A stretch of 64,000 bases of DNA from Methanobrevibacter olleyae (GTDB lineage: Archaea; Methanobacteriota; Methanobacteria; Methanobacteriales; Methanobacteriaceae). The DNA lies in assembly GCF_900114585.1 (NCBI RefSeq), contig NZ_FOTL01000006.1:1-64000 (forward strand), read 5' to 3'. This document shows, one piece after another, positions 45,770-57,816 of the stretch. Both the position numbers and the translations under genes were made by a program. Every line of letters starts with the position of its first letter. The first letter of the stretch is position 1. The notes beneath the pieces were generated by a model. The model saw nothing but the letters and a program-made list of their open reading frames with translations, searched no databases and was not told the DNA's origin.

Positions 45770-46234
45770 TTATTCATTTACCCAATTTTTAATTTCATCA
45801 TCTGATTCTCTACCATATAATCTTCTACCTGCTTTCCAATTGATTTTAGGATATGCATTTTTTAAATCATTCTCACAAGCTCTAATTCCAGTTCCACCAG
45901 AGGTACAGAAAGCAATAGCAGTTTTTCCAGCCATATCACAAGATTCAATAAAGGTATTTATGATTGTAGGGGCTGTATACCACCATACTGGAAAACCAAT
46001 CAATATAATATCATATTCGGATATATCAATAGTTTCTTTAATTGGAGGTCTAAAAGATTTATCATTCATTTCAATAGTAGATCTACTGTTTTTATTTGTA
46101 TAATCTAAATCTGCAGAGCTATAAGGGGTTTCAGGTGAGATTTCAAAGATATCTGCATCAATTGCATCTGCTATTTTTTCTGCTACTCTTTTTGTTACTC
46201 CACTTGCAGAGAAATAAGTTACTAAAGTTTTCAT
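45770..46234 (-). CDS. Flavodoxin
   Basis: About 154 aa. FMN phosphate loop LVTYFSASGVTKRVAEKIA, then DIILIGFPVWWYTAPTIINTF and IAFCTSGGTGIRACENDL, characteristic of the long-loop flavodoxin-4 group often annotated as NAD(P)H-linked flavodoxin. It carries one or two electrons for reductases. The start is ATG 46234 after GAAGGTGA. An aldo/keto reductase gene lies 107 bases upstream on the same strand; the two may share a promoter. Confidence 0.9.
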   Translation of the reverse strand: MKTLVTYFSASGVTKRVAEKIADAIDADIFEISPETPYSSADLDYTNKNSRSTIEMNDKSFRPPIKETIDISEYDIILIGFPVWWYTAPTIINTFIESCDMAGKTAIAFCTSGGTGIRACENDLKNAYPKINWKAGRRLYGRESDDEIKNWVNE

Positions 46235-46340
46235 TTTTTTCACCTTCATTTTTTATTATTTATTTTAAATTTAATAATTAAGCTTTTTTAATTTTAATTT
46301 ATATAATATTTTAATCAAAAATTGTCAATTGTTTTCCAAT

Positions 46341-47462
46341 TTATTTTCCAGAATTCTCAAAACAATCAACAACATCTTTTAATAAATCTGGAATATTTAA
46401 TTTTTGAGTACAGATTTCCATACAAGATTCACATTCACTACATTCAGATGCTGGAGGATTTGTTGCGGATGTTGTTCCATAAATTGCATGTAATGATGGA
46501 AGAGAAAACATTTTTTCACTATTATACAATTCAAAGTAATCCGGAATTGGAATGCCTATAGGACATTCTTTTAAACAATATCCACAGTAACTACAATCAA
46601 TTGCAATAAGTTCTTTAATTTCATTGGATATTTCTAAAACAAACCTGCTTTCTTCTTCATTCAATGGTTTAAATGGTTTAAAGACTTCACAGTTTTCTTT
46701 CATCTGTTCAATATTACCCATTCCACTTAAAACTACCTTAACATTTTTAGGACTTCCTGCAAATCTTAAAGCAGCTTCAACTAAGCTCATATTATTGTTT
46801 TTGAACTTTTCTTTAATATTATCTGGTAAATTAAATAAGGTTCCACCTTTTATAGGTTCCATAACAACTACATCAATGCCGTATTTTTCACAAATCTCAT
46901 AGTTTTTTCTTGATTCAGTTAAATTACTTTCCCAGTCAAGGTAGTTTAATTGTAATTGAACAACATCAATTATATCTCCATATTTTTCAAGAATCTCCTT
47001 AAGTAGCTTGGATTTATCGTGATAACTGATTCCAATTTTACAAGCTACTCCTTCTTCTTTTGCTTTTTTAATATAGTCAAAACTTTTACAATTTTCAGCT
47101 ATTTTAAAGAAAGCTTCATTAATATTATGTATTAATAATAGGTCAAAATAATCTATACCAAGTCTTTCAAGCATGATGTTTACATATTTTTCATTGTCTT
47201 CTTCACTTTTTAATAACCATGTAGGTATTTTATCAGCTATTTTAAATGATTCACGAGGGTATCGTTCTACAAGTCCGAGTTTTAGCCCCTCTTCTGATGC
47301 TCCTTCGTGATATGCGTAGGATGTATCAAAGTAGTTAAAGCCTTGATTCATATAATAGTCAATCATTTCTGTAAAATCATCAAAATTTATTGAGCTTGGA
47401 TTATTTTCATCTTCTAAGTCTAATCTCATAGCTCCAAATCCAAATATAACATTGTCTGACAT
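46341..47462 (-). CDS. Aldo/keto reductase with C-terminal ferredoxin-like [4Fe-4S] motifs
   Basis: 373 aa. TIM-barrel aldo/keto reductase (FDTSYAYHEGASEEGL with the catalytic Asp/Tyr, DLLLIHNINE, VVVMEPIKGG). C-terminal region with CSYCGYCLKECPIGI and CSECESCMEICTQKL, ligands for two iron-sulfur clusters, as in the common oxidoreductase family of anaerobes. Reduction of aldehydes or ketones with electrons from NAD(P)H or ferredoxin is likely; substrate unknown. AAGGAGATT precedes the ATG. It is divergent from a MarR gene, whose product may control it. Confidence 0.9.
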   Translation of the reverse strand: MSDNVIFGFGAMRLDLEDENNPSSINFDDFTEMIDYYMNQGFNYFDTSYAYHEGASEEGLKLGLVERYPRESFKIADKIPTWLLKSEEDNEKYVNIMLERLGIDYFDLLLIHNINEAFFKIAENCKSFDYIKKAKEEGVACKIGISYHDKSKLLKEILEKYGDIIDVVQLQLNYLDWESNLTESRKNYEICEKYGIDVVVMEPIKGGTLFNLPDNIKEKFKNNNMSLVEAALRFAGSPKNVKVVLSGMGNIEQMKENCEVFKPFKPLNEEESRFVLEISNEIKELIAIDCSYCGYCLKECPIGIPIPDYFELYNSEKMFSLPSLHAIYGTTSATNPPASECSECESCMEICTQKLNIPDLLKDVVDCFENSGK

Positions 47463-47677: not shown

Positions 47678-47730
47678 GAATTATTTATTAAATGATATAT
47701 AAGTCATAAATAAGATTAAAAGTGGTTTTA

Positions 47731-48186
47731 ATGGTAGTACCTAGTCAGTTTAATGAAGAAAATGTAGAAAGTATTAGAATTTATCATTTTGTAGAAGAGT
47801 TAGTAGCTAGCTTTAAAAATTATATTGATGAAGAATTTATTGATGATGATATTAGTATGGTAGAGCTTCCATTTTTACTTAGAATAAGATTTTCAGATAA
47901 AGGTAGTCAAAAAGATTTAGTAAATTTATTTAAAGTAAGTGATGGATATACTGCAAAGCTTTTAAGGCGTTTTGAACTTGCTGGCCTTATTAAAAGAATC
48001 GAAGATCCATCTAATAGACGTAGAAAATTAGTTAAATTAACTGATAAGGGCCTTAAAAGAACTGATAAAATCCTAAAATCCATTGATTACTGGGAGGATG
48101 CAGTAATGGATGGAATGAATGATGATGAAAAGAAAGTTTTAAAAAAAGCTTTATTAAAATTAGTTTTAAACACGGAAAAACTTTAA
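47731..48186 (+). CDS. MarR-family transcriptional regulator
   Basis: About 151 aa. Winged helix GSQKDLVNLFKVSDGYTAKLLRRFELAGLIKRI with wing DPSNRRRKLVKLTDKGL, flanked by dimerisation helices. The start is ATG 47731 after AGTGGTTTT; an upstream in-frame codon lacks spacing. It is divergent from the aldo/keto reductase-flavodoxin pair and convergent with the FMN/ferredoxin protein gene; probable local regulator of the redox genes. A short duplicated segment follows its stop. Confidence 0.88.
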   Translation: MVVPSQFNEENVESIRIYHFVEELVASFKNYIDEEFIDDDISMVELPFLLRIRFSDKGSQKDLVNLFKVSDGYTAKLLRRFELAGLIKRIEDPSNRRRKLVKLTDKGLKRTDKILKSIDYWEDAVMDGMNDDEKKVLKKALLKLVLNTEKL

Positions 48187-48282: not shown

Positions 48283-48891
48283 TTATTCAATTCTATGAAT
48301 AGCTTCTGAAGGACAGTTTTCATAACATAAGCCACAATGTAAGCAGTGATTTTGAGCTATTTCAAAGGGACTTCCTTCTTTTATAATTTTTTGTGGACAT
48401 AAATCTTGACAAGTTCCACATTCAATACACTCTTCACTAATTAAAAATCCTTTTTCTTTTATTTCCCAGTTTCCTATTGTAAATTTTTCTCTTAAAATAG
48501 GTTTTTGAGTCAAATCGAAGAATTCTATTTCTCCTTTTTCAATATAAAATGGTTCAAGTATATATCTTGCATCACCTGGATAAACGTTGTTCATATATTT
48601 ATTTTCCTCAAACATTTTGTCTATCCATTCTTTTTGATTATCTAATTTTTTAGCAATACCAGTAATGCGAACAGATTTATTAGCTCTTAAATTAAGATAA
48701 CTAACTTGGGGATGATTTATAATTTCTTTATAAACATCTTTTCCACGTGCAGTTAAGAAATAAACGGTTTCTTCATCAATAAGCATTATATCAATAACTC
48801 TGCTTTGTGGATTTCCCTCTTCATCAACAGTACTTAGAATACCATCAATAACTTCTCTAATTTGTTTTAAGCAATCTTCTTTTCTAACCAT
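48283..48891 (-). CDS. PNPOx-like flavin-binding protein with two [4Fe-4S] motifs
   Basis: 202 aa. Residues 1-130 are a split-barrel FMN-binding domain of the pyridoxamine-phosphate-oxidase fold (GILSTVDEEGNPQSRVIDIM, VYFLTARGKDVYKEI, VSYLNLRANKSVRITG). The C-terminal ~55 residues carry ECIECGTCQDLCP and HCLHCGLCYENCP, two ferredoxin clusters. It probably passes electrons between ferredoxin and a flavin-bound substrate; the exact role is unknown. GAGGGGTATAA precedes the ATG. Confidence 0.88.
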   Translation of the reverse strand: MVRKEDCLKQIREVIDGILSTVDEEGNPQSRVIDIMLIDEETVYFLTARGKDVYKEIINHPQVSYLNLRANKSVRITGIAKKLDNQKEWIDKMFEENKYMNNVYPGDARYILEPFYIEKGEIEFFDLTQKPILREKFTIGNWEIKEKGFLISEECIECGTCQDLCPQKIIKEGSPFEIAQNHCLHCGLCYENCPSEAIHRIE

Positions 48892-48977: not shown

Positions 48978-49057
48978 ATTATAAATCTCTAATTTAGATT
49001 ATAAATCTCTAATTTAAATTATAAATCTCTAATTTAGATTATAAATCTTCTAATTTA
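48978..49057 (-). repeat. Four 20-bp copies of the oxidoreductase gene 3' end
   Basis: ATTATAAATCTCTAATTTAG-type units start at 48978, 48998, 49018 and 49038. The last one (ATTATAAATCTTCTAATTTA) contains, on the minus strand, the final codons K-L-E-D-L-stop of the gene ending at 49039; the other three are noncoding. Confidence 0.95.
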
Positions 49058-50031
49058 AAAATAATTTTTCCTTGAGCTTTATTTGATTCCATAAGTTTAT
49101 GTGCTTTAGAAATATCTTCTAAATTAGTGAAAATTTTTGAAATATTAGTTTCTACATTATAATCTATAATAAATTTAAATAATTCATCTATTGCTTCTTG
49201 GCTTGGATAATTACTGAAAAATCCTGTAAGATATTTTCCATTAGGAACATAAGTAATTGGATCGAAGTTTTTAATATATTCTTCTCCTCCTAAAACACCA
49301 GTAACACAAATTATTCCTCTAAATTTTAATGAATTCATAGAGTCTTTAAGTGATGTAGCACCGATGAAATCTAGTACTTTATCTACTCCATTGTGGGTGA
49401 TTTTTAAAACTTCATCACTAATATTTCCATTATCTATAATAGTATAATCCACATCTAAATCTTTTAATTTAGCTATTCCTTTTTCGCTACGACTTGTTGC
49501 AATGATAGTGGCATTAATAGATTTAGCTAATTGAATGGCACTTAAACCTGCTGCACTTGTTCCTCCTCTAATTAAAAGAATATCTTCTTTTTTTAAATCT
49601 AAACATTCAAATAATGAACCAAATGCAGTAAAATAGGTTTCAGGGATTGAAATTAATTTTTCAAGACTTAATTTTTCTAAACTTTCATCCTGTATTTTAA
49701 AAGTGTTCTTTATAGGTATTAATGTATACTCTGCATAACTTCCATCATAAGTTCTACCCATTCCTCCCATTAAACAGCAAACGATATCTCCTTTTTTAAA
49801 ATTACTATTAGATGGATTTATAACCTCTCCAACACATTCAATTCCAGGAATTCTTGGAAGTTTAATATAAGATTCATCAGCTTCATAATCTCTTAAAATA
49901 ACTTCAGAACGATTTATACCAAATCCTTTTACTCTAATAAGTACTTTATCTTCAACTATTTCTGGAATTGGTACTTCACTTACTTTTAAGTCTTCTGCTT
50001 TACAAGTTCTTTCAAGGACTACTGCTTTCAT
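49039..50031 (-). CDS. Medium-chain zinc-less alcohol dehydrogenase / quinone oxidoreductase
   Basis: 330 aa MDR-family protein: GroES-like N-domain (KVSEVPIPEIVEDKVLIRVKG, IPGIECVGEVI) and a Rossmann domain (ILLIRGGTSAAGLSAIQLAKS, NATIIATSRSEKGIAKLKDL). Zinc-ligand residues of true alcohol dehydrogenases are absent, which fits NADPH:quinone reductase-like enzymes. AAAGGTGGAAAA precedes the ATG. It lies 118 bases downstream of the radical SAM gene on the same strand, so it may belong to the RiPP locus or be separate. The gene end is present in four tandem copies. Confidence 0.88.
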   Translation of the reverse strand: MKAVVLERTCKAEDLKVSEVPIPEIVEDKVLIRVKGFGINRSEVILRDYEADESYIKLPRIPGIECVGEVINPSNSNFKKGDIVCCLMGGMGRTYDGSYAEYTLIPIKNTFKIQDESLEKLSLEKLISIPETYFTAFGSLFECLDLKKEDILLIRGGTSAAGLSAIQLAKSINATIIATSRSEKGIAKLKDLDVDYTIIDNGNISDEVLKITHNGVDKVLDFIGATSLKDSMNSLKFRGIICVTGVLGGEEYIKNFDPITYVPNGKYLTGFFSNYPSQEAIDELFKFIIDYNVETNISKIFTNLEDISKAHKLMESNKAQGKIIFKLEDL

Positions 50032-50149: not shown

Positions 50150-51175
50150 TTAAATCTCTTTCCAGCATTGTGGGTCTGGAGAGTAATAATTGTGAGTATA
50201 ACCATAACTTATTGATGGACAACCTCTACAGAATCTAAGTAATTCACATTTAGAACATTTTTCAAACTTATCGTATTGTCTGTAGTAATCGATTTTTGGC
50301 CCTGTAAAGATATCATAAACACTTTCTTCAAGGGCATTTCCTATCTTACTTTCCATTCTACGACAAGCAAAAACGTCACCATTAGGTAAAATTGTTAAGT
50401 GACCTATTCCACAGTTACAACCATCATAGATAATATTTTCATCAAGATTTTCTGGTATTCTAAATAGGCCTTTTTCATATAGGTAAAGTGTCCATAAGTG
50501 GTCTTTTAGGCTAAAATTAGTTCCACTATTATTATATTTTTCATATAGTTTAAAACAAGTATCTAATAGATCTCTATATTCTTGTGCTGTCATTTGAGCA
50601 CTTTTTTCAAAACTTGTTGGAGAGTACCTTGCAAATGTAAATAAATCTGCTTTATATTCAACAACTTTTTCTATTATTCCAGGTATTTCATTAATATTTG
50701 TTTTAGAAACAGTTGTCATGATATTTGCATGAATTCCTGCATTTTTTAGTGGAGCTATTTTTTCAAGTGTTGTATAAAAAGACCCTTCCTTTCTAAAATA
50801 GTCATGTGTATCTTTAAGCCCATCTAAAGATAATTGGTAAAATCGACAACCATATGATTTTAAATCTCGACAAACATTTTCATTTAGGTGAAATGGATTA
50901 CCTAAGATTCCAAAGGGTGTTTTATTATCTTTTAAAAATTCTAGAATTTTCCAAAAATATGGGTGTAAGATAGGGTCTCCACCAGTTATTGTAAAAAAAG
51001 TTTTTCTTTCTAATCTTTCACACATATCATAACAATTATTGAAGATTTTTATAATATTTTCATAATCCATTGTAATGATTGCTTTATTGTTTTCTTCTGA
51101 GAATATGTAGCAATGTTTACATCTTTGATCACATTCATCAGTTATGTGAAATTGAAAAGGGAAAAATTCTGTCAT
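50150..51175 (-). CDS. Radical SAM/SPASM peptide-modifying enzyme
   Basis: 341 aa. The radical SAM cluster motif is C15-DQR-C19-KH-C22 (CxxxCxxC), followed by FFTITGGDPILHPYFW, the SAM-binding GGD-type motif. The C-terminal ~75 residues form a SPASM-type Cys-rich domain (YDGCNCGIGHLTILPNGDVFACRR, FEKCSKCELLRFCRGCP and a final DPQCWKE), expected to hold one or two auxiliary [4Fe-4S] clusters. Such enzymes modify ribosomal peptides, often making Cys thioethers. The only close upstream gene on the same strand encodes an 81-aa peptide of six TACG repeats, 173 bases away, its probable substrate. The ribosome site is weak (GTGGCATT). Confidence 0.92.
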   Translation of the reverse strand: MTEFFPFQFHITDECDQRCKHCYIFSEENNKAIITMDYENIIKIFNNCYDMCERLERKTFFTITGGDPILHPYFWKILEFLKDNKTPFGILGNPFHLNENVCRDLKSYGCRFYQLSLDGLKDTHDYFRKEGSFYTTLEKIAPLKNAGIHANIMTTVSKTNINEIPGIIEKVVEYKADLFTFARYSPTSFEKSAQMTAQEYRDLLDTCFKLYEKYNNSGTNFSLKDHLWTLYLYEKGLFRIPENLDENIIYDGCNCGIGHLTILPNGDVFACRRMESKIGNALEESVYDIFTGPKIDYYRQYDKFEKCSKCELLRFCRGCPSISYGYTHNYYSPDPQCWKEI

Positions 51176-51213
51176 TTTAATGCCACAAAAAATAAGAAAT
51201 TCCTTAATTTTAT

Positions 51214-51301
51214 AAAAATTATTTTTTTATCTATTTAGATCTTTTTAAAACTTTTTATTATTTTTGAACTATTTTAAAATTATCTTTTTATCTATTTAGA
51301 A
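51214..51301 (-). repeat. Diverged direct repeat between the peptide and radical SAM genes
   Basis: AAAATTATTTTTTTATCTAT (51218 region) and AAAATTATCTTTTTATCTAT (51277 region), each followed by TTAGA, about 62 bases apart in the 3' flank of the peptide gene. Confidence 0.7.
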
Positions 51302-51348
51302 TTATTTAAATAATTTTTTAATTAAGGAATAGGGTTGTTTTAATTTAT

Positions 51349-51594
51349 TTAGTATAAATCAGTTCCACAAGCAGTAAATACTTCTTCTCCGCATGCAGTA
51401 TTTATTTCTTCTCCACATGCTGTTGAGAGTTTTTCTTCTCCACATGCAGTATTTATTTCTTCTCCGCATGCTGTTGAGAGTTTTTCTTCTCCGCATGCAG
51501 TAGAAATCATAGATTTTTTCATGCCAAAGTAATTTCCTGCGATTTTAGAGCTGTAATAAGCATCTTGTTTAGTCCAAGCATTTAATTTGTACAT
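51349..51594 (-). CDS. Repeat peptide with six TACG motifs, probable RiPP precursor
   Basis: 81 aa. Residues 1-30 form a leader-like segment (MYKLNAWTKQDAYYSSKIAG, then NYFGMKKSMI). Residues 31-81 consist of six repeats with the core TACG: four TACGEE(KLS or IN) arranged as two 17-residue dimers, then TACGEEVF and TACGTDLY at the end. Cysteines are 34, 43, 51, 60, 68 and 76, spaced 8-9, and each is followed at +3 by Glu or Asp. There are no other cysteines. GGAGATAAA precedes the ATG. The radical SAM/SPASM gene follows on the same strand. I recall Cys-rich peptide families of this look in methanogens, but no product or function has been described to my knowledge. Confidence 0.88.
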   Translation of the reverse strand: MYKLNAWTKQDAYYSSKIAGNYFGMKKSMISTACGEEKLSTACGEEINTACGEEKLSTACGEEINTACGEEVFTACGTDLY

Positions 51595-51948
51595 AATTTT
51601 ATCTCCTATTTTTTAAAAAGTTTAAAGAATTTTTATTTTAATCGATATTTTAAAATGTATTTTAAATTATTAATTAAAACATCACTATTTCAAACTTTTA
51701 ATAATATTTTATATTAGTATATTAATAAACTAATAAGTTACTTTAAAGTAACTTTTAAACTTTTTATCACATGCCATCTGTTTATTTCCTGTATTAATTT
51801 AAATTAATTTCTTTTAGCTATTTTTAACTTAATTTTTACTTTTAATTTTAATTTAAAGAATTATTTTAATATAAAGTTACTTTATGGTTACTTTAGGTTT
51901 TTATAAATGAATTTATAAAAATATCATTAGTATTTTAGGAGAATTTAA
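51595..51948. promoter_or_regulatory. Divergent promoter region with HxlR-type operator candidates
   Basis: Between the peptide gene (minus) and the HxlR gene (plus). It holds a perfect 20-base palindrome AAGTTACTTTAAAGTAACTT at 51735-51754 and two direct half-sites GTTACTTTA at 51876-51884 and 51887-51895. The half-sites share the palindrome's arm. The HxlR protein encoded next to them is the obvious candidate ligand, for itself and the peptide operon. Confidence 0.65.
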
Positions 51949-52332
51949 ATGGTTGAAGAAAAAGCAAAGAAATGTCCGGTTGAATTGGCAATGGGATTAA
52001 TTAATAAAAAATGGGTTATTCAATTATTAAGAGATATGTTTTTCGGTGTGTCTCGTTTTAATGAATTTAAAGAGGATAAACCTAATTTATCTAATAAAGT
52101 ACTATCTAATTGCCTTAAAGAAATGGAATATAATGGCCTTATTCAAAGGATTGTTGATGATGAAGATCCTTTAAATATTGAATATAAATTAACTGAAAAA
52201 GGATTAGCTCTTAATAAAGTTATCTATGAACTTGTTATGTTTTCTTTAACTACTGATATTGATAATGAATATTACTCTGAGGAGGATAAAACAGAAATAG
52301 CAAAAATTTTTGAAAAACAACTTTTTGGATAA
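51949..52332 (+). CDS. HxlR-family transcriptional regulator
   Basis: 127 aa. KCPVELAMGLINKKWVIQLLRDMFFGVSRFNEF is the classic HxlR start (Cys near the N-terminus, then the winged helix), followed by ISNKVLSNCLKEMEYNGLIQR-like recognition region (PNLSNKVLSNCLKEMEYNG). HxlR proteins are dimers, frequently redox- or aldehyde-sensing through the conserved Cys. TAGGAGAATT precedes the ATG. Divergent from the peptide-radical SAM locus, with palindromes between. Confidence 0.92.
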   Translation: MVEEKAKKCPVELAMGLINKKWVIQLLRDMFFGVSRFNEFKEDKPNLSNKVLSNCLKEMEYNGLIQRIVDDEDPLNIEYKLTEKGLALNKVIYELVMFSLTTDIDNEYYSEEDKTEIAKIFEKQLFG

Positions 52333-56329: not shown

Positions 56330-57337
56330 TTAATCTCCATTAATTTTAATAAGAGTTTTTCCTTTAGATCCTCTGTTATCTACTTTTTTAAGAGCTTTAT
56401 TAACATCTACTAAGTCATAGATTTCATCAATAGAACATTCAAGCTTATTATTTTCAAATATTTTAGAGATTTTTTCTAATTGTTTTCCATTTGATTCAAC
56501 AAATATAAAATGATAAGTTTGTTGATTTTTCTTAGCTAAATTATCATATTTTCTACCTAATATTTTAAATAATAATTTCTTTACAGTAGATAAACCCATA
56601 CGTTCTGCAAATCTTTCGTTAGGCATTCCTTTTAATGAAACAAGTGTCCCACCTTTTTTTAGAATTTTAAATTCTTTTTCTAATTCTTCATCTCCAAGAG
56701 TATCTAAAACATAATCAATATTAGTTAATTTTTCTGAATAATCTTCTTTTTTATAATCGAAAAATTCATCAACACCTAATTTCATTACTCTTTCTTTATT
56801 TGGAGCACTTCCACTTGTAATTACTTTAAGGCCTAAGCTTTTAGCTATTGGAATAGCCATTGCTCCAAGGCTTCCAGTTCCTCCAGATATAAAAATACTT
56901 TCATCTTTTTTGACATTCATCAATTCAAAAGATTGCATAGCTGTTAGAGCAGTTAATGGAATACAAGCAGCTTCTTTAAAGCTTAAATAATCAGGTATTT
57001 TTGCAATAGCTTCTTTATCTACTGCAGTCAATTCAGTAAAAGCACCGATTTTATCTAAAGGCATTCTACAGTAAACCCTATCTCCAATATTAAATTCACT
57101 TACATTTTCTCCAATTTCTTCAACAATCCCTGAAAACTCATTTCCCATAACTAATGGCAATTTATAAGGAATAAGTAATTTAACTTCTTTACGAATAATC
57201 ATATTATCTAATGGGTTAACACCAGCATATTTGATTTTAACAAGAACTTCATTTTTATCTATTTTAGGTATTGGAATATCAGATATTTCTAAATCATTTC
57301 CTTTTTTATTATATTTTTTTAATATTGCTGCTTTCAT
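56330..57337 (-). CDS. NADP-dependent medium-chain oxidoreductase (zinc-less)
   Basis: 335 aa MDR protein: ISDIPIPKIDKNEVLVKIKYAG, GNEFSGIVEEIGENVSEFN, DRVYCRMPLDKIGAF, SIFISGGTGSLGAMAIPIAKSL and VITSGSAPNKERVMKLGVDE. It resembles bacterial and archaeal NADPH:quinone/enone reductases of the RTN4IP1/Qor type. AGGTGATAA precedes the ATG. The HxlR gene 86 bases upstream on the same strand is a likely regulator, a pairing also common in bacteria. Confidence 0.88.
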   Translation of the reverse strand: MKAAILKKYNKKGNDLEISDIPIPKIDKNEVLVKIKYAGVNPLDNMIIRKEVKLLIPYKLPLVMGNEFSGIVEEIGENVSEFNIGDRVYCRMPLDKIGAFTELTAVDKEAIAKIPDYLSFKEAACIPLTALTAMQSFELMNVKKDESIFISGGTGSLGAMAIPIAKSLGLKVITSGSAPNKERVMKLGVDEFFDYKKEDYSEKLTNIDYVLDTLGDEELEKEFKILKKGGTLVSLKGMPNERFAERMGLSTVKKLLFKILGRKYDNLAKKNQQTYHFIFVESNGKQLEKISKIFENNKLECSIDEIYDLVDVNKALKKVDNRGSKGKTLIKINGD

Positions 57338-57423
57338 TTTATCACCTAATATTTATTTTAATCTAAAATTACAGTAGTTTTAAAAGGATTTTTAATTTTT
57401 AGAGTTTTTTTAGCTGTCTTTAT

Positions 57424-57816
57424 TTAAACTTTTAATAATTCAGCATAATATTCTTTAAACATATTAATTATTTCTAAATCTCCTTCATCACCACATTCTA
57501 GCTCATCTATACCAAAAATAGCCATTTCATATAAAATTCTATTTAATCTAGAACCTTTTTTTCTTAGATAATATTCTGTAGATGGTTTATTATTAACTAG
57601 AGATTTCTTTTTTTCAATTAGGTTATTATTTTCCATAAATTTTAATGTCTCGGCTAAAACAGTATTTGATAAGTTTGGTTTGTTCTCATTAAATTCTTTA
57701 AAGTGTTTTTTACCTGTAAACATATCTCTAATCAATACAATTACCCATTTACGATTAATTAATTTCAACGTATTCTCAATTGGGCAAGTAATCATATCTT
57801 TTGTCAAATTAATCAT
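57424..57816 (-). CDS. HxlR-family transcriptional regulator
   Basis: 130 aa. CPIENTLKLINRKWVIVLIRDMF and PNLSNTVLAETLKFMENNNLIEK are the HxlR winged-helix signature, with the N-terminal Cys conserved. The ATG at 57816 overlaps its own AAGGATGAT ribosome site, so a TTG at 57807 may be the real start; it gives a front length equal to the other HxlR here. A palindrome (AGTTAGT-GATG-ACTAACT) lies 80 bases upstream. It precedes an oxidoreductase gene on the same strand. Confidence 0.9.
   Translation of the reverse strand: MINLTKDMITCPIENTLKLINRKWVIVLIRDMFTGKKHFKEFNENKPNLSNTVLAETLKFMENNNLIEKKKSLVNNKPSTEYYLRKKGSRLNRILYEMAIFGIDELECGDEGDLEIINMFKEYYAELLKV

Follow-up and report, generated by a model that had tools for sequence, protein, structure and literature searches.

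An archaeal ACGX-type RiPP locus in Methanobrevibacter olleyae with a radical SAM/SPASM enzyme related to thio(seleno)oxazole maturases

A stretch of 64,000 nucleotides from Methanobrevibacter olleyae (contig NZ_FOTL01000006.1, positions 1 to 64,000; hereafter the window) carries an archaeal RiPP system of a catalogued kind whose chemistry is uncharacterised. A short cysteine-rich peptide is encoded just upstream of a radical SAM/SPASM enzyme, and the two are very probably a precursor and the maturase that modifies it (Table 1). The nearest characterised family to the enzyme is SbtM, the thio(seleno)oxazole maturase. The reading we favour, with moderate confidence and on grounds of sequence kinship and analogy, is that the locus would make a multi-thiooxazole peptide anaerobically, by radical SAM chemistry and under thiol-stress-type control, and that the product would serve as a captophorin-like intracellular scavenger. 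The initial annotation presented the locus as a candidate for an undescribed system, but it already has an entry in NCBIfam as the ACGX system (TIGR04340 for the maturase, TIGR04341 for the peptide). In the open-access literature, we found no published account of the ACGX system, of its chemistry, or of its HxlR/MDR cassette. New here are the co-occurrence of peptide, enzyme and MDR reductase, a cassette spanning five phyla, a shared methanogen operator, and a thiooxazole-type reading in place of a thioether one.

Table 1. Features of the ACGX-type cassette, with positions in the window
Feature	Position	Strand	Evidence
Flavin-binding PNPOx-like protein carrying a 2x[4Fe-4S] domain; often part of the cassette	48283..48891	-	Pfam PNPOx_N + Fer4
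MDR-family reductase (zinc-type alcohol dehydrogenase / quinone oxidoreductase-like), conserved cassette member	49039..50031	-	Pfam ADH_N, ADH_zinc_N
Radical SAM/SPASM maturase of ACGX system, 341 aa	50150..51175	-	TIGR04340 537.7 bits; Pfam Radical_SAM + SPASM
Inverted arms ATTCCTTAATT / AATTAAGGAAT in the peptide-enzyme intergenic region	51199..51330	-	Direct reading
ACGX-type precursor peptide, 81 aa, MYKLNAWTKQDAYYSSKIAGNYFGMKKSMISTACGEEKLSTACGEEINTACGEEKLSTACGEEINTACGEEVFTACGTDLY	51349..51594	-	ORF, repeats, leader; TIGR04341 14.3 bits
Candidate operator, perfect palindrome AGTTACTTTAAAGTAACT	51736..51753	.	HxlR-peptide intergenic region
Second candidate operator site AGTTACTTTATGGTTACT	51875..51892	.	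HxlR-peptide intergenic region
Divergent HxlR/DUF24 regulator	51949..52332	+	Pfam HxlR 2e-21

Both reading frames lie where the initial annotation had placed them, and Pfam agrees with its radical SAM/SPASM assignment. The peptide begins with a leader (residues ~1-31) containing a KxNxW...SKIAGNY motif, followed by a core with six TACG motifs and six cysteines spaced 9, 8, 9, 8 and 8 residues apart; the repeat unit of the core is 17 residues (51 nt), with two cysteines in each. The six-repeat structure described earlier is real: more than two TACG motifs were never reached in 200,000 shuffles of the peptide's own residues, and the motif is fixed across the repeats despite synonymous differences (TGC/TGT, ACT/ACA, GCA/GCT). 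All of the longer methanogen homologues space their cysteines by 8 or 9 residues, for the most part in alternation, and repeat number ranges from 2 (L006/L035) to 10 (L033) with the leader conserved throughout. The leader is kept at the protein level, with 7 synonymous and 2 nonsynonymous changes over 24 codons in comparison with L034. AlphaFold gives the peptide no fold (pLDDT 38, disordered), in agreement with the earlier remark that nothing in it resembles a folded protein, and a captophorin-like beta-helix is unsupported by the model. A Pfam match to Cys_rich_FGFR (19.8 of 22 bits) falls under its cut-off and is due to cysteine composition, while an Rfam search at the locus gave no match. 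Selenocysteine was absent from the ACGX peptides at the stop codons checked.

A clear AGGAG precedes the ATG of the peptide gene but not the start of the enzyme gene, and the two genes are separated by an inverted repeat, so the precursor would be favoured over the enzyme; the repeat is possibly a partial terminator acting in that direction. In a palindrome scan of L006, L008 and L034, the arms were adjacent and a T-run present in L006. In another methanogen locus (L003, genome G047, 1032-1478) a frameshift in the repeat tract, through slippage or assembly error, puts the last repeats in a second ORF.

The enzyme scores 537.7 bits against TIGR04340, over the curated cut-off of 400, whereas the peptide reaches 14.3 bits against TIGR04341, under the cut-off of 28. 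The latter looks like limited model reach, because the other archaeal homologues are missed too (0/7 archaeal peptides detected in 100 genomes); the repeats, position and leader of the peptide are consistent with the ACGX system despite its score. Given the insensitivity of TIGR04341, archaeal homologues were searched for with the window peptide as query. The peptide and an enzyme over the cut-off occur in exactly the same seven of 100 archaeal genomes (G000, G005, G016, G023, G039, G047 and G052), a coincidence with a chance probability of about 6e-11, and an ortholog of the MDR reductase is likewise found in exactly those seven. Peptide homologues lacking the enzyme, which the initial annotation had named as a finding that would tell against a precursor and maturase pair, were looked for in these 100 genomes and did not appear; together with adjacency across loci, this upholds the pairing it proposed.

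The pair is patchy in its occurrence, being present in 3 of 19 genomes of the same genus (its own genome counted). A scan of 84,980 species yielded 34 named loci, which fall in Methanobacteriaceae, Bacteroidota, Bacillota, Thermodesulfobacteriota and Spirochaetota, so the system is not confined to methanogens and its distribution is much wider. Among the named loci whose upstream sequence is long enough, nearly all have a Cys-Gly-repeat peptide just 5' of the enzyme, and the only clear exception is L058. That locus has a convergent ORF (L058:7034-7375, minus strand) whose start is membrane-like; it contains THTANSYL, which resembles a leader, has SCGSSCGSSCG as its tail, and might encode an ACGX precursor anchored in the membrane. 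The contigs of L037, L038, L039, L054, L063 and L066 break off within the peptide repeats or immediately before them, so draft genomes probably list fewer precursors than exist.

In 22 relatives, the enzyme's CX3CX2C motif and its seven SPASM cysteines are all invariant. Its AlphaFold model (pLDDT 89.5) finds its closest solved folds in SuiB, anSMEcpe, SkfB and CteB; the radical SAM domain starts at residue ~11 and there is no separate RRE domain. After TIGR04340, the best NCBIfam scores are to SbtM (176 bits), heme b synthase (104) and PapB (59.6). The SbtM match (TIGR04082; 176.1 of 350 bits) spans model positions 197-506 only and is under the membership cut-off, as is that to PapB (NF047865; 59.6 of 340 bits). 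For phylogenetic analysis, 18 SbtM genes and the ranthipeptide SCIFF maturases (TIGR03974) were added to the ACGX enzymes. Maximum-likelihood trees place ACGX and SbtM in one clade (100 SH-aLRT in one tree, 100/99 in another), with the SCIFF maturases far from ACGX on a 3.3-substitution branch. Grouping ACGX with the next-nearest enzymes is rejected by the AU test (p 0.008), and grouping it with the long-branched SCIFF outgroup narrowly escapes formal rejection (p 0.063). Several residues are almost confined to ACGX and SbtM (CDxxC, C52, F74, GNP rather than TNG, K224, A270 and S276).

The substrates resemble each other as well. Across 20 ACGX peptides, glycine follows cysteine at 105/106 sites, alanine or serine precedes it at 102/106, and threonine or serine occupies position -2 at 90/106, while no acceptor residue recurs at a conserved distance from cysteine, conservation being confined to [ST]-A-C-G. 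Precursors with repeated [ST][GSA][C/U]G lie beside 11 of the 18 SbtM genes, and no peptide with Cys-Gly repeats was found next to the enzymes of the next-nearest group. The two systems also differ: SbtM has an N-terminal region of ~200 residues which the ACGX enzyme lacks, and the residue before cysteine is mostly alanine in ACGX but glycine or serine in SbtM precursors. The latter contain selenocysteine and often have a signal-like hydrophobic start, whereas ACGX peptides have cysteine only. They also lack such a start, so their location and function may differ from those of the SbtM precursors. Two SbtM-associated precursors (L088, L090), with many Cys-Gly and a single terminal Sec-Gly, look intermediate between SbtA and ACGX. 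SbtM removes four hydrogens from Cys or Sec peptides to form a thiooxazole (review PMC11002830).

A further parallel comes from the captophorins (bufferins, oxazolin, fontiphorin and gonophorin), made by MNIO enzymes, which share with ACGX a repeated Cys-Gly core and probably stress-linked genes. The EGKCG precursor type has 17-residue repeats with two cysteines, as does the window peptide. Captophorin EGKCG repeats carry 5-thiooxazoles that bind copper, show an absorbance band at ~305 nm and can still be alkylated, and captophorins are linked to oxidative and metal stress (PMC12452194, PMC12668002). Their maker, however, is an iron oxidase that is unrelated to the ACGX enzyme and has a partner protein, and many of their precursors have a signal peptide, whereas the ACGX enzyme is a radical SAM/SPASM protein; no MNIO (DUF692) gene is found among the conserved neighbours. 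The SbtM kinship, the common Cys-Gly motif and the captophorin parallel together lead us to predict thiooxazoles. Six of these would lower the mass of the peptide by 24.19 Da and leave alkylatable free thiols. A catalogue entry without chemistry would then become a sharp mass prediction, -4.03 Da per cysteine as opposed to -2.02 for a thioether.

The main alternative is chemistry of the ranthipeptide or sactipeptide type, in which each cysteine sulfur is bonded to a carbon atom in a residue close by, giving up to six thioethers, and which the initial annotation had assumed. A SPASM enzyme paired with a multi-cysteine peptide is also the arrangement of the ranthipeptides (PapB, SCIFF/CteB), the closest solved structures include the thioether maturases SkfB and CteB, and each repeat has one cysteine, followed in many repeats by an acidic residue three to four positions on (CGSE, CGEE, CGAGD). 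This recalls the CX3D substrate of PapB, and the chemistry of SPASM peptide maturases can differ among close relatives. Against it stand the distance of the enzyme from PapB and SCIFF in score and branch length, the lack of an acceptor at fixed distance, and the variable spacing between cysteine and acid, with many CGSxC sites having no acid and L052 (seven cysteines) none at all. The thioether reading is thus probably wrong as far as the sequences tell; we hold it to be unlikely, and the expected shift is about -4 Da per cysteine, not -2.

Beyond the peptide and enzyme, which the initial annotation recognised, the locus contains conserved MDR and HxlR genes, which it overlooked. The cassette order across phyla is a divergent HxlR gene, peptide, enzyme and MDR reductase, often with a PNPOx/ferredoxin protein. 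The MDR gene is directly 3' of the enzyme in most bacterial loci, and the window MDR is 43-62% identical to most cassette MDRs beyond its closest relatives, in archaeal genera and in bacteria; a nitroreductase and a SIR2-like protein replace it in some Bacillota. Homologues of the PNPOx/Fer4 protein occur in archaeal loci and in the Bacillota loci L042, L054, L060 and L066. In nearly all loci that extend far enough, the HxlR gene is divergent and upstream, and the cassette HxlR proteins conserve a CP(V/I) cysteine near the N-terminus, which in the HxlR family senses thiol-reactive stress. Every archaeal locus examined has palindromes of the GTWACn6GTAAC type between its HxlR and peptide genes.

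Other genes lie near the cassette. SIR2-like (sirtuin-type) genes are found near the ACGX operon in L042, L044, L045, L054, L057, L061, L062, L065 and L066 (Bacillota and a Treponema), the L045 copy having no Pfam match. In the window, a second HxlR and MDR pair is encoded at 56330-57816 with no radical SAM gene; its MDR is 29% identical to that of the cassette and its HxlR 44%. A flavodoxin and an aldo/keto reductase with an Fe-S domain are encoded downstream of the cassette on the same strand (45770-47462), syntenic in L033 and L034, together with a MarR-like regulator gene at 47722-48186.

The constancy of the MDR raises the possibility that it (or the nitroreductase in some bacteria) uses the modified peptide as a redox cofactor or hydride mediator comparable to mycofactocin or PQQ. 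Alternatively, the MDR might reduce one of the peptide's residues, which is the role of LtnJ in lacticin 3147. The matching distribution and position of the MDR argue for such a role, as do the nitroreductase or SIR2-like genes that occupy its place where it is absent. Yet 2 to 10 repeats in methanogens are unlike a one-site cofactor, the swap for other oxidoreductases suggests partners in a stress regulon, and no cluster peptidase was seen that might release a small cofactor, all of which makes this explanation rather improbable. It is very improbable that the peptide, cysteine-rich and disordered as it is, is an unmodified thiol or metal buffer beside an enzyme with another target: the two co-occur strictly and are adjacent in archaea and bacteria alike, and the leader is conserved separately from the core, all of which is typical of a maturase substrate. 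An antimicrobial RiPP or exported signal, which patchy occurrence in gut and rumen organisms might suggest, is just as doubtful, since a regulator and oxidoreductases make up the conserved neighbourhood, in which there is no exporter, peptidase or immunity gene.

Under the thiooxazole reading, the enzyme itself would bind the leader, as suggested by its resemblance to SuiB and anSMEcpe and its lack of a separate RRE domain. The A-C units would then be oxidised one after another by radical chemistry, with the loss of four hydrogens per X-Cys, as in SbtM, and a 5-thiooxazole would close at each, leaving one free thiol per ring. Judging from gene context, the divergent HxlR protein would be a thiol-sensing repressor acting on the palindromic operator and relieved through its cysteine, and the operon would be expressed together with its dedicated MDR reductase. 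We infer a cytoplasmic product, a multidentate scavenger of soft metals or of electrophiles and oxidants.

If this is true, two unrelated enzyme classes would form the same ring on a common Cys-Gly motif, one with the use of oxygen and the other by O2-free radical SAM chemistry, and host-associated methanogens would gain a stress or metal peptide. The fixed partnership of the cassette with one MDR reductase is itself a testable question. We suggest, tentatively, that anaerobes including gut methanogens use an SbtM-like radical SAM enzyme to make, under HxlR control, multi-thiooxazole peptides that bind metals or electrophiles, with the MDR as an additional partner. These would be a convergent, O2-independent counterpart of the MNIO-made captophorins and, to our knowledge, the first such chemistry in archaea.
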